Assembly: GCF_007197755.1 (NCBI RefSeq)
Contig: NZ_CP041636.1
Span: forward strand, 124,001-188,000
Source of the DNA: Ferrovibrio terrae
GTDB lineage: Bacteria > Pseudomonadota > Alphaproteobacteria > Ferrovibrionales > Ferrovibrionaceae
Reading direction: 5' to 3'
DNA: 64,000 bases
Every line of letters begins with the position of its first letter. Within the stretch, counting starts at the first letter, position 1. Below are positions 41,309 to 43,317 of this stretch, piece after piece. The position numbers and the translations under genes are program-made. The notes below the pieces were generated by a model. It ran no database searches. It was not told the origin of the DNA and saw only the letters and a list, made by a program, of their open reading frames with translations.

Positions 41309-41337
41309 TTGACGGCGGCGGTGCAGACTGGCAATTT
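41309..41337 (+). promoter_or_regulatory. Candidate sigma-70 promoter of the leuA leader
   Basis: TTGACG at 41309-41314 and a weak CAATTT at 41332-41337 are 17 bases apart. Transcription would begin near 41344, only a few bases before the ATG of the first leader peptide, so that peptide could be read from a nearly leaderless message. The -10 match is poor. Confidence 0.35.
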
Positions 41338-41346
41338 GTTGGGGAT

Positions 41347-41400
41347 ATGAACAAAACCGCCCGCCTGAGCCTACTCCTTCTTAGCGGCCCGATCCTGTAA
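41347..41400 (+). CDS. leuL: Leucine-rich leader peptide 1 of leuA
   Basis: A 17-codon mini-ORF encoding MNKTARLSLLLLSGPIL. Six of its 17 residues are leucine, with four in a row read by CTA, CTC, CTT and CTT, codons little used in this GC-rich genome. The stop TAA sits in the loop of a perfect nine-base hairpin (CCGATCCTG/CAGGGTCGG, 41389-41410). This is the layout of an amino-acid attenuator leader, where ribosome stalling at Leu codons reports leucine shortage to the downstream leuA. A GTTGGGGAT site precedes the ATG. Confidence 0.75.
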   Translation: MNKTARLSLLLLSGPIL

Positions 41401-41445
41401 GCAGGGTCGGGGTCGGAAGAACGCGCCCAAAGGGCGCAGGCTCAG
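41389..41445 (+). promoter_or_regulatory. RNA hairpins in the leuA leader
   Basis: Three pairings are possible: CCGATCCTG with CAGGGTCGG (41389-41410), GCGCCC with GGGCGC around AAA (41423-41437), and a long-range CTGAGCC (41365-41371, within peptide 1) with GGCTCAG (41439-41445). A ribosome paused on the Leu codons would block the long-range pair. No T-run follows, so a classical intrinsic terminator is not evident. Confidence 0.5.
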
Positions 41446-41463
41446 TCAGCAATCCGGTTTGTC

Positions 41464-41544
41464 ATGTCTACTTCATCAGAAATCCCAGCTTTCCAGACAG
41501 CTGCCATCTCGCTCCTGCTACTTCGACTTACCAGCGGCCGCTGA
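41464..41544 (+). CDS. Leucine-rich leader peptide 2 of leuA (candidate)
   Basis: A second mini-ORF of 26 codons plus stop starts 63 bases after the first. It contains SLLLLRL: four consecutive Leu codons (CTC, CTG, CTA, CTT at 41512-41523) and a fifth at 41527. Its stop TGA lies in the 5' arm of hairpin CGGCCGCTGA/TCAGCGGCCG (41535-41568), which competes with GGCCG/CGGCC (41564-41577). Two stacked Leu-rich ORFs ahead of leuA are unlikely by chance, but translation of the second is unproven, and its start lacks a strong ribosome site. Confidence 0.5.
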   Translation: MSTSSEIPAFQTAAISLLLLRLTSGR

Positions 41545-41604
41545 ACAGCGGGCCTCTGTCAGCGGCCGTCCACGGCCCTCACCCCAAGTCGATCCGAATT
41601 CCCT

Positions 41605-41621
41605 TTCGCTTCAGGAGCGAA
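41605..41621 (+). promoter_or_regulatory. Hairpin enclosing the leuA ribosome-binding site
   Basis: TTCGCT and AGCGAA pair around TCAGG, placing the AGGAG site (41613-41617) partly in the loop and partly in the stem, nine bases before the leuA ATG. It could limit translation initiation. Its link to the Leu-rich leader is inference. Confidence 0.45.
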
Positions 41622-41625
41622 GACC

Positions 41626-43317
41626 ATGAACAAGATGAATTTCCACAAATACCGCGCGTTCCAGCCGATCAATTTGCCCGACCGGACCTGGCCCGACAAA
41701 ACCATCACCAAGGCGCCGATCTGGTGCAGCGTGGACTTGCGCGACGGCAATCAGGCGCTGATCGAGCCGATGGGCCCCGAGCGCAAGATGCGCATGTTCG
41801 AGACGCTGGTGAAACTCGGCTTCAAGGAGATCGAGGTCGGCTTCCCCTCGGCGTCTGACACCGACTTCAGCTTCACGCGCCAGATCATCGAGGAGAAGCT
41901 GATCCCCGATGACGTGACGATCCAGGTGCTGACCCAGTGCCGGCCGGAACTGATCACCCGCACGTTCGAAGCCCTGAAGGGCGCGAAGCGCGCCATCGTG
42001 CATTTCTACAACTCGACATCGACCCTGCAACGCCGCGTGGTGTTCGGCCTCGACCAGGCCGGCATCACCAAAATAGCCACCGACGGCGCAAGGCTGGTGA
42101 AGGAACTGGCCGACAAGGCGCCGGAGACCGACTGGGTGTTCCAGTATTCGCCGGAAAGCTTCACCGGCACCGAGATCGATTATTCCATCGAGATCTGCGA
42201 AGCGGTGATGGACGTGATCAAGCCCACCCGCGACAAGCCGATCATCTTCAACCTGCCCGCCACGGTGGAGATGAGCACGGCCAATATCTATGCCGACCAG
42301 ATCGAGTATTTCCTGCGCAAGGTGAAGAACCGCGACTGCATCATCCTCTCGCTGCATCCGCATAACGACCGCGGCACCGGCGTGGCGGCGGCGGAACTCG
42401 GCGTGATGGCCGGCGCCGACCGCGTGGAAGGCACGCTGTTCGGCAACGGCGAGCGCACCGGCAATGTCGATGTCGTGACGCTCGCGATGAACCTGTTCAG
42501 CCAGGGCGTCGATCCTGAGCTCGACTTCACCGACATCACGGCGGCGGCCCGCACGGCGGAATACTGCAACCAGCTGCCGGTGCATCCGCGCCATCCCTAT
42601 GTGGGCGAACTGGCCTTCACCGCCTTCTCGGGCTCGCACCAGGATGCGATCAAGAAGGGCATGACGGCGCAGGGCCAGCGCAATGACGGCGTCTGGGAAG
42701 TGCCCTACCTGCCGATCGACCCGGCCGATGTGGGCCGCGCCTATGAGCCGGTGATCCGCATCAACAGCCAGTCCGGGAAGGGCGGCATCTCCTACGTTCT
42801 CGAAACCGATTACGGCCTCGAACTGCCGCGCCGGCTGCAGATCGAGTTCAGCCAGGTGATCCAGCGCATTGCCGATGGCAGCGGCAAGGAGATCAGCCCG
42901 AAGCTGATCTGGGACACCTTCGAGAATGAATATCTCGTGCAGCCGACCGGCCGCTTCAGTTTCGGCGACCATCGCACCCTGCCCGACCCGCATCAGAGCG
43001 AACGCCGCAGCCTGACCGCCAATCTGAAGGACGCCGGCAAGGCCGTCGAACTGCAGGGCCAGGGCACCGGGCCGATCGATGCCTATATCGACGCGATCAA
43101 CCGTCATGCCGGGGTGCAGATCAACCTGATCGACTACCGCGAACATGCCATCGCGCCGACCGCCACCAATGGAGGGGCCTCCTCGGAGGCGGTGGCTTAC
43201 GTTGAGATCAAGCGGGCGGATGGCACCACCCTGTTCGGCGTCGGCCGTGACCGGAATATCGTCGCGGCCTCGCTCAAGGCAGTGACCTCGGCAGCCAATC
43301 GCCTGCTCGCCAGCTGA
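41626..43317 (+). CDS. leuA: 2-isopropylmalate synthase
   Basis: A 563-residue enzyme joining acetyl-CoA and 2-oxoisovalerate, the first committed step of leucine synthesis. The catalytic TIM barrel opens with [17 protein letters not shown] and contains [17 protein letters not shown] with metal-binding His. A C-terminal regulatory domain (about residues 430-560) ends in [16 protein letters not shown] and should bind leucine for feedback inhibition. Size and N-terminus ([18 protein letters not shown]) match the longer LeuA type of actinobacteria and some alphaproteobacteria. The 279-base stretch from the first leader ATG to leuA suggests attenuation control. Confidence 0.95.

Follow-up and report, generated by a model that had tools for sequence, protein, structure and literature searches.

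The leuA leader in the analysed window, a stretch of 64,000 nucleotides of Ferrovibrio terrae DNA, contains two short leucine-rich open reading frames in series (uORF1 and uORF2), each of the two units being followed by a hairpin. Its comparison with the leaders of related bacteria suggests that uORF1 controls access to uORF2 and uORF2 to leuA, which would make this arrangement a two-stage leucine sensor in many alphaproteobacteria. Sequence comparison shows the anatomy of the leader, the two frames, the hairpins and the statistics of pairing. The main elements are:

41309..41337, plus strand: candidate promoter, TTGACG (41309-41314), 17 nt, CAATTT (41332-41337).
41347..41400, plus strand: uORF1, 17 codons, MNKTARLSLLLLSGPIL, in frame in 10/10 genus genomes, probably leaderless.
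41371-41383, plus strand: Leu codons CTA CTC CTT CTT of uORF1 with the following A.
41439..41466, plus strand: translation start region of uORF2, GGCTCAG (41439-41445), CGGTTTGT (41455-41462), ATG (41464).
41464..41544, plus strand: uORF2, 26 codons, MSTSSEIPAFQTAAISLLLLRLTSGR, in frame in 10/10 genus genomes, length variable.
41524..41530, plus strand: CGACTTA motif (Arg CGA, Leu CTT, A) within uORF2.
41626..43317, plus strand: leuA, 2-isopropylmalate synthase, ORF of 563 codons.

The gene at 41626..43317 is what we take to be leuA, following the initial annotation and general knowledge of the family; among the matches listed the best relative of its product is a Ferrovibrio sp. protein, 88% identical. 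A count over the two strands of the window gave 354 ATG-initiated ORFs of 10–45 codons, among which uORF1 and uORF2 alone encode LLLL, while the chance to find such a run in a random 17- or 26-codon ORF, calculated from the local Leu frequency, is approximately 0.001–0.002. The two frames of 17 and 26 codons with four consecutive leucines, noticed in the initial annotation, are confirmed. The remark made there on the rarity of CTA and CTT also holds, since among the 170 Leu codons of six window genes, one of them leuA, CTA was never used and CTT five times, and CGA occurred once among their 99 Arg codons.

Of 123 leuA matches two were left out, one located at the start of a contig and one being an additional match in its genome. 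After removal of 8 duplicate loci, 130 alphaproteobacterial leaders were used. A leader was considered as strictly tandem if it contained two motif clusters, no more and no fewer, separated by 60 nt or more, the downstream one lying no further than 200 nt from leuA, with an in-frame ATG. This form was found in 43 of the 130 leaders by a rule that misses diverged second motifs (CGACTTC and CGCTTAG are examples noticed by eye), and both frames were retained in all 10 genomes of the genus, in support of the tandem Leu leader proposed initially. Removal of leaders with at least 70% likeness in element 2 reduced the 43 to 29, seven of them from the genus. A hold-out set was composed of 10 out of 11 hand-picked tandem loci: L062 was dropped as a near copy, and L039 was kept despite 95% identity with one of the training members. 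In the literature searched, neither a tandem Leu leader nor CGACTTA at leuA was found described for alphaproteobacteria; leu attenuators in proteobacteria were reportedly predicted by Vitreschak, Lyubetsky and co-workers.

The TTGACG box of the window starts at 41309, 38 nt upstream of the uORF1 ATG, and is retained in the alignment of all 10 genus members, while a consensus promoter scan of the window leader gave nothing at its threshold. TTGAC was registered 35–39 nt upstream of the uORF1 ATG in 42 of 43 tandem leaders and in 5 of 432 control spans, the ATG closest to 37 nt within the range of 28–48 nt being taken if there were several in frame. With such spacing uORF1 should be leaderless, and judging from sequence it is probably translated in this way, which agrees with the earlier suggestion that the candidate promoter leaves peptide 1 almost without a leader, like the trp leader of Sinorhizobium. 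As for uORF2, it has no clear Shine-Dalgarno sequence in the window, and a match to anti-Shine-Dalgarno of −5 kcal/mol or lower precedes it in a fraction of only 0.07 of the 43 tandem leaders.

Two long-range complementarities connect the units with the translation starts located downstream:

41351..41371, plus strand: segments of uORF1 that can pair with the start region of uORF2, ACAAAACCG (41351-41359, bulged) and CTGAGCC (41365-41371).
41510..41517, plus strand: Leu-codon segment of uORF2, CGCTCCTG, complementary to the leuA Shine-Dalgarno region.
41612..41619, plus strand: leuA Shine-Dalgarno region, CAGGAGCG, pairing with 41510-41517.
41586..41591, plus strand: AAGTCG, complementary to CGACTT of the motif, in the same base stem as 41510-41517 / 41612-41619.

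In the window the duplex of the uORF1 segments with the uORF2 start region has an energy of −28.2 kcal/mol. In matched-pair tests on the 29 tandem leaders the Leu region of uORF1 favoured its own uORF2 start region in 26 (mean z −1.28, p=3e-7), and against dinucleotide-shuffled controls in 24 (z −1.75, p=1e-6), all pairing p-values assuming that leaders are independent after removal of close copies, while related genomes are not fully so. The hold-out set gave the same (9/10, p=0.004). The maximum of pairing falls at −30 to −5 relative to the uORF2 ATG, with weaker values on either side; the segment 20–55 nt downstream of this ATG was not favoured, and no pairing of uORF1 with the leuA start region was detected in tandem leaders. 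Neither did hairpin 1 show favoured pairing with element 2, hairpin 2 or the uORF2 start region, nor hairpin 2 with the leuA start. When a stalled and a queued ribosome were imitated by a mask on uORF1, the uORF2 start opened in 34 of 43 leaders (mean 0.44 to 0.53, p=0.0003); with a single-ribosome mask it opened slightly, in 25 of 43 relative to the stop state (p=0.17 and p=0.066 in two versions).

The duplex CGCTCCTG / CAGGAGCG of the second step has an energy of −23.0 kcal/mol in the window, and the AAGTCG contact is complete in L002 and L006, reduced in L003-L005 and absent from the duplexes of L007-L011. In tandem leaders the preference of the uORF2 Leu region for the leuA start was modest: 22 of 29 in matched pairs (p=0.004), 16 of 29 with shuffles in the region −30..+5 (p=0.018) and not significant in the hold-out set (5/10, p=0.31). 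Taken over 49 leaders, the last Leu element paired with its own leuA start region in 38 (p=3e-5), and in single-element leaders the Leu region paired with the leuA start region in 24 of 32 (p=4e-4 at −40 to −15). A mask on uORF2 hardly opened the leuA start, the mean changing from 0.47 to 0.49 (p=0.04) or, in another version, from 0.475 to 0.49 (p=0.13). Control at the level of translation, considered as possible in the initial annotation, is supported by Leu regions pairing with the next start, the first step being clear and the second weak; enrichment of terminators was not found.

Based on these data we consider it moderately probable that this leader works as a leucine switch operated by ribosomes in two steps, with translation as its target. 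The stalling, the sequence of steps and the consequence for LeuA are inferences, as follows. Transcription would start at or next to the uORF1 ATG, and uORF1 would be read leaderless. When Leu-tRNA is plentiful, ribosomes would pass the Leu codons of uORF1 and exit at its stop in hairpin 1; the freed uORF1 RNA would then pair with the SD-poor start region of uORF2, closing this frame, while uORF2 RNA would pair with the leuA start region in a fold stabilised by hairpin 2. With its start covered by uORF2 RNA and hairpin 2 holding the fold, leuA would be poorly translated. When Leu-tRNA is scarce, a ribosome would stall at CUU-A of uORF1, where a second one can queue behind it; uORF2 would open, be translated and stall a ribosome at its own CGA-CUU-A, and this second stall would free the leuA start. 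That leaderless uORF, SD-poor uORF and leuA are wired in series, two independent CUU-A stalls being needed, and that this holds for many alphaproteobacteria is a more tentative proposition, about as likely as not. If true, the leader would be a two-input AND switch with a steep response to leucine shortage.

Rather unlikely, in our estimation, is the alternative that translation of leuA is controlled by the last unit alone, uORF2 and its hairpin 2, while unit 1 acts at some other level, for instance Rho-dependent termination or mRNA stability, the ribosome stalled on uORF1 shielding RNA. It agrees with the lack of terminator enrichment and of a clear Shine-Dalgarno sequence before uORF2, and has a published parallel in erm(A), where one of the models, in the available part of the source, ascribes to the first leader a control over mRNA stability (PMC8274638). 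The specific pairing of uORF1 with the uORF2 start region, and not with the segment 20–55 nt downstream of its ATG, argues against it.

Classical transcription attenuation of the E. coli leuL or rhizobial trpL type, in which the ribosome position on uORF1 or uORF2 selects between antiterminator and intrinsic terminator, would account for the hairpin located at the stop of a Leu-rich leader peptide, and in the accessible text on Caulobacter ilvIH attenuation with a leader CDS is reported for an alphaproteobacterium (PMC4117421). Terminator-like features do occur in individual leaders: TTTTTT comes after hairpin 2 of L009, a case invisible to the strict scan because only short loops without bulges were scanned, and in L019, L133 and L197 a hairpin precedes T-rich stretches. 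Nevertheless, the scan found no T-run terminator in the window leader, as had been noted initially, and in the 43 tandem leaders terminators were not enriched either in the strict scan (4 versus 2.2 expected) or in the loose fold-based one (24 versus 20.6 expected). Rfam covariance models gave no match in 41250-41700 even at E 1, and at the gathering threshold only a tRNA was found in the whole window. Attenuation of this type thus appears improbable.

The hairpins themselves are located at:

41388..41411, plus strand: hairpin 1, 10 bp with one G-U, arms 41388-41397 / 41402-41411, TAA in the TAAG loop.
41534..41569, plus strand: hairpin 2, 11 bp, GCGGCCGCTGA / TCAGCGGCCGT, arms 41534-41544 / 41559-41569, outermost pair G-U.

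All 24 nt of hairpin 1 are invariant in the 10 genus members. The loop position of the uORF1 stop was described correctly at the outset, while the “perfect nine-base” stem turned out to be of 10 bp with one G-U pair. According to a script with a simple stem model, a stem of at least 7 bp with the uORF1 stop in or at the loop is formed in 21 of 35 leaders, in the remaining 14 stems being shorter or placed elsewhere. Folding gave a mean z of −2.35, with values below −1 in 26 of 29 leaders; in 22 of these 29 the predicted loop contains the stop. RNAalifold returned no pairs on the hairpin 1 alignment, in which stem lengths differ. In hairpin 2 the uORF2 stop TGA ends the 5′ arm of the 11-bp stem, just as a stop lying within a stem had been anticipated. 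Compensatory changes were registered at 9 of 10 pairs, and the covariation score was 0.502 versus 0.279 in shuffles (0/500 as high), a count which leans to a subset because the 23 leaders of this alignment (A3) were picked by eye from 35 for similar hairpin 2. The hairpin assumed at the leuA ribosome site can form locally in 5 of 10 genus members (L002-L006, by eye), and is the least conserved part of the leader.

CGACTTA is the commonest 7-mer in the 130 leuA leaders, with 126 copies on the coding strand versus 2 on the opposite one; it is present in 87 leaders, while a motif hit is absent from 35, which counts against the two-step switch. Conservation of the 7-mer exceeds the needs of Leu coding, and would be expected if CGACUUA with the hairpin were a binding site for a protein or small RNA, with reading frames being secondary; for the actinobacterial LEU element a binding protein was favoured, in the available part of that work, by Seliverstov et al. 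2005 (PMC1262725). Against this quite improbable option stands the fact that in 132 of 150 motif hits the CGA-CTT-A frame has an upstream ATG and meets a stop no more than 13 codons on, as do the other two frames in 3 and 13, some leaders and some uORFs contributing more than one hit. Besides, in the unit 1 alignment CTTA, invariant by construction since units were selected for it, is preceded by CGA in 28 of 35 and by CTN in 7, meaning that Leu is kept and the sequence is not, and ATG and stop are retained despite the varying length of uORF2. The refuting condition named initially, loss of the Leu runs or frames in relatives, is not borne out for the frames (10/10) or for the uORF1 run, while the four-Leu run of uORF2 is not kept within the genus and is down to a single Leu or a pair in several relatives, CGA CTT and then A being its conserved part. 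The possibility that ribosomes shift by +1 at CUU-A and so enter the start of leuA was considered by eye and rejected as not conserved, because motif-to-leuA distances in the genus (102, 107, 118 and others) do not agree modulo 3.

In its own genome CTNCGACTTA has 7 matches, one being the leuA leader and the other six, read by eye, having no such leader. The promoter-plus-uORF1 pattern found there the leuA leader and one site, whose ATG frame ends before Leu codons (by eye); its reversed control gave 2 matches, and the variant with CGACTTA gave none. Small ORFs are common in GC-rich DNA, but chance is a very improbable source of this leader, given LLLL in just 2 of 354 short ORFs, both located here, and conservation across the class.

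Amino-acid attenuators are textbook devices, usually one-step and studied mostly in enterobacteria. A serial design kept by many members of a large bacterial class would show how sharp thresholds are made from ribosome stalling, explain the working of leuA leaders without clear terminators and assign a regulatory role to leaderless translation. The classical transcription attenuator shares the amino-acid-rich leader peptide with the Ferrovibrio leader, which lacks an intrinsic terminator with a U-run before leuA. In the gammaproteobacterial Leu leader, presumably Rfam RF00512, a Leu codon run is located in the leader peptide of the leu operon; here there are two ORFs, no terminator in the window leader and nothing matching in Rfam up to E 1. 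Caulobacter ilvIH, also from an alphaproteobacterium, is a branched-chain amino acid operon that likewise has a leader CDS in front, but is set apart by its description in the available text as transcription attenuation with one leader CDS (PMC4117421). The trp attenuator of Sinorhizobium meliloti (rnTrpL, peTrpL), likewise alphaproteobacterial, offers a leaderless leader ORF before an amino acid biosynthesis gene; according to the accessible part of the source it is an attenuator with a small RNA (PMC10117765), whereas intrinsic terminators are not enriched in tandem leuA leaders.

Closer in design is erm(A) with its two short leader ORFs in series, ermAL1 and ermAL2: in one of the two models quoted in the available text, a stall in the first leader allows translation of the second, and a stall in the second allows translation of the gene (PMC8274638). 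There a macrolide serves as the signal and the gene codes for a methyltransferase, while for Ferrovibrio leucine shortage is the presumed signal, the gene is biosynthetic and the first ORF probably leaderless. Masking of the uORF2 start by the uORF1 region, which such a relay requires, is seen here as complementarity only. The actinobacterial LEU element, as far as the accessible text goes, has a Leu-rich leader ORF upstream of leuA and, separated by a structured stretch, a leuA Shine-Dalgarno region to which the Leu run pairs (Seliverstov et al. 2005, PMC1262725), as CGCTCCTG can to CAGGAGCG here; it has one unit and a proposed pseudoknot, in contrast to two serial units, uORF1-uORF2 start pairing and CGACUUA in Ferrovibrio. 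With its two units (10/10 in the genus, 43/130 leaders) the Ferrovibrio leader is similar to the LEU element in working and is not its member. The best reading is a relay of two translational steps, akin to both erm(A) and the actinobacterial LEU element, in a leader architecture of which the literature searched gave no description.

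The leuA gene, whose closest match among the named genomes listed belongs to Ferrovibrio sp. (88% identity), lies in an alphaproteobacterial genome of 4.26 Mb in one contig and is preceded by two Leu-rich reading frames in series:

41347-41400, + strand, uORF1
41464-41544, + strand, uORF2
41626, + strand, ATG of leuA

They are the only two of 354 ATG-initiated frames (10–45 codons) in the window that contain LLLL. CTA and CTT are used in uORF1/uORF2, yet across six genes in the window, with leuA among them, they make up 0 and 5 of 170 Leu codons; CGA, used in uORF2, is registered once among the 99 Arg codons of six genes. 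Serial translational attenuation is the best-supported reading of this leader and somewhat more probable than all others together.

For the initial annotation, loss of the Leu runs or frames in close relatives would be a refutation, and neither the frames nor the uORF1 run were lost: in the genus, represented by ten genomes in the searched set, alignment and script found both in 10/10 leaders. uORF1 has 17 codons throughout (16 in L009) and retains RL, at least three consecutive Leu and terminal PIL, and terminates within the loop of hairpin 1, CCCGATCCTG-TAAG-CAGGGTCGGG, all 24 nt of which are invariant. The length of uORF2 ranges between 19 and 44 codons, yet it constantly ends with RLxxG(R or C) and invariant CGACTTA, so it is a true reading frame with a constant end. 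Its Leu run is variable, being LLLLRL, LLRL, LLLRL, LLTLRL, ALRL or PRL, so that four Leu are peculiar to the copy in the window. In genus member G004 the tandem leader (L008) precedes a shortened leuA (open frame of 187 aa), possibly due to an assembly error (83% completeness, 6% contamination); a second leuA lies ~1.8 kb downstream (L034/L234), and 600 nt upstream of it (L034) contain no LLL leader ORF.

Among 130 leuA leaders, taken from relatives and from genomes sampled evenly over the class, CGACTTA is the most frequent 7-mer, present in 87 of them, with 126 copies on the coding strand versus 2 on the opposite one. Among 150 matches to (CGA or CTN)-CTT-A the frame that reads CTT as Leu had an ATG ahead of it and met a stop within 13 codons in 132 cases, the remaining two frames in only 3 and 13; 35 of the 130 leaders gave no match to the motif. 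Two kinds of peptide are recurrent: those distant from leuA (type 1) have LRL or LLL and then (T/I)xPxL-stop or I-stop, and those near leuA (type 2) frequently end RL(I/T/S)xGR-like. In 35 type-1 units, where CTTA was itself a selection criterion and hence is invariant by construction, the preceding codon is CGA in 28 and CTN in 7. This exchange favours CUU, read as Leu, with A after it over a purely nucleotide motif. Genome-wide scans for the motif and for the promoter-plus-uORF1 pattern found no further leader of this kind in the host genome. Four alphaproteobacterial leaders (L040, L045, labelled Rhizobiales, L048, and L058, Aestuariivirga) have one Leu-rich uORF ending in P 74–84 nt ahead of leuA and thus represent a compact variant with one unit.

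In 29 non-redundant tandem leaders duplex energies were predicted for each Leu region (from 30 nt ahead of the motif to 7 nt inside it) and the start region that follows it, and set against those obtained with start regions taken from other genomes. The Leu region of uORF1 favoured the uORF2 start (mean z −1.28, 26/29, p=3e-7) and that of uORF2 the leuA start (−0.63, 22/29, p=0.004). No significant pairing was registered in these leaders for uORF1 with the leuA start, the upstream part of uORF2 with the leuA start, uORF2 with leuA codons 4–20, the two Leu regions mutually, hairpin 1 with element 2 or hairpin 2 (the stem at the uORF2 stop), or hairpin 2 with the leuA start; hairpin 1 was slightly unfavourable with the uORF2 start (z +0.40, p=0.016) and the uORF1 Leu region (+0.32, p=0.019). 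In 25-nt sliding windows uORF1 pairing peaked between −30 and −5 relative to the uORF2 ATG (z −1.29, p=5e-6), declining on either side, and uORF2 pairing at −30 to −5 of leuA (−0.67, p=0.003) with a lesser match at 0 to +25 (−0.48, p=0.0035). Against dinucleotide-shuffled start regions the first step gave z −1.75 (24/29, p=1e-6), the second −0.61 (16/29, p=0.018) or, with a wider leuA region, −0.88 (21/29, p=0.002), and four controls were not significant. A hold-out of ten tandem leaders, all belonging to named genomes, reproduced the first pairing (9/10, p=0.004) and not the second (5/10, p=0.31); three controls were not significant. Across 49 non-redundant last Leu elements of all kinds pairing with the leuA start was detected (mean z −0.65, 38/49, p=3e-5), and element 1 in 32 of these leaders gave no such signal (p=0.63). 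In 32 single-element leaders, some from other phyla and partly overlapping the 49, it peaked at −40 to −15 (24/32, p=4e-4), with none in the upstream control region (p=0.7). Thus, predicted pairing between a Leu region and the next ORF's start is clear at the first step and in single units, and less certain at the second step. The codons CTC CTG are inherently complementary to the Shine-Dalgarno sequence. Duplexes predicted in the window are:

41365-41371 with 41439-41445, + strand, CTGAGCC with GGCTCAG
41351-41359 with 41455-41462, + strand, ACAAAACCG with CGGTTTGT, bulged
41510-41517 with 41612-41619, + strand, CGCTCCTG with CAGGAGCG
41524-41529 with 41586-41591, + strand, CGACTT with AAGTCG

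By eye, single leaders L216 and L219 (alike L028, L215) end with LLRLTRP or similar, and CCCTTAGG at their stop can pair either locally or with remote CCTAAGGG, possibly a switch of different design.

Hairpin 1 folded better than shuffles (mean z −2.35; below −1 in 26/29), with the stop in its loop in 22/29. Under a simple stem model allowing one mismatch, 21/35 leaders have a stem of 7 bp or longer whose loop contains or adjoins the stop, the stem beginning 5 nt past the CTT codon in 15 of them; arm sequences differ, one being shared by the four genus members among the 21. In the other 14 stems are shorter or elsewhere and the stop is mostly ahead of them. Since RNAalifold gave no consensus pairs for hairpin 1, its covariation is a by-eye, uncounted impression. 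Hairpin 2 (mean z −1.62; below −1 in 21/29) holds the stop in its predicted loop in 11/28. In 23/35 leaders, picked for similarity in this hairpin, compensatory changes affect 9/10 pairs, paired cells make up 85.7% (shuffles: 74.3%), and covariation scores 0.502 versus 0.279 (0/500 shuffles as high; at most 0.173 when slid).

When a stalled and a queued ribosome over uORF1 were simulated, the uORF2 start was unpaired with a mean probability of 0.53 instead of 0.44 (34/43, p=0.0003). One stalled ribosome had a weak effect (25/43 versus the stop state, p=0.17 and 0.066 in two versions; p=0.035 versus the free state in one version), and the leuA start was barely altered (p=0.04 versus the free state, 0.13 with queue mask; two versions). 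The distance from the uORF1 ATG to CUU, 27–48 nt and most commonly 33, would leave space for the queued ribosome. Within the 28–48 nt searched, TTGAC stands 35–39 nt ahead of this in-frame ATG in 42/43 tandem leaders (15 at 36, 12 at 38, 11 at 35, 2 at 37 and 2 at 39) versus 5/432 control spans. Given the usual sigma-70 geometry, this spacing would put the start site at the ATG or a few bases off; uORF1 should be leaderless. The fraction of starts preceded by a Shine-Dalgarno match (−5 kcal/mol or lower) is 0.00 for uORF1, 0.07 for uORF2 and 0.51 for leuA.

Classical transcription attenuation, one rival explanation, appears improbable. No terminator-like site was found in the leader of the window, and no Rfam family matches it. 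A strict scan, blind to loops above 8 nt and bulges, detected terminators in 4/43 tandem leaders versus 2.2 expected, and a loose one in 24/43 versus 20.6. Individual leaders, some of them in the loose scan, do look terminator-like (such as L009, L019, L133, L197), and Caulobacter ilvIH is reported as transcription attenuation (PMC4117421); these two points slightly raised this rival and slightly lowered the serial translational reading. In L009 (genome G006) hairpin 2 is followed by TTTTTT, the sole case among ten genus members, and could act as an intrinsic terminator.

No description of a serial leucine leader was found in the open-access literature searched, which omits most subscription journals. 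A single unit of the alphaproteobacterial leader resembles the actinobacterial LEU element, for which pairing between the run of Leu codons and the Shine-Dalgarno box of leuA has likewise been described (PMC1262725); LEU is described there, however, as one unit with a pseudoknot, whereas two units are present here. Five leuA leaders (L076, L081, L099, L103, L106, in records labelled Acidimicrobiales, Actinomycetes, Dormiibacterota, Ilumatobacter and Actinomycetota) encode short peptides that terminate in LLLT and share this CUU-A, which hints at a link between LEU and the alphaproteobacterial units. Because LEU is a single unit with a pseudoknot and stalling here is a prediction, the leader is assigned to neither the LEU nor the erm(A) family. 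The proposed relay design has a precedent in erm(A), for which a two-leader relay is one of two models quoted (PMC8274638).
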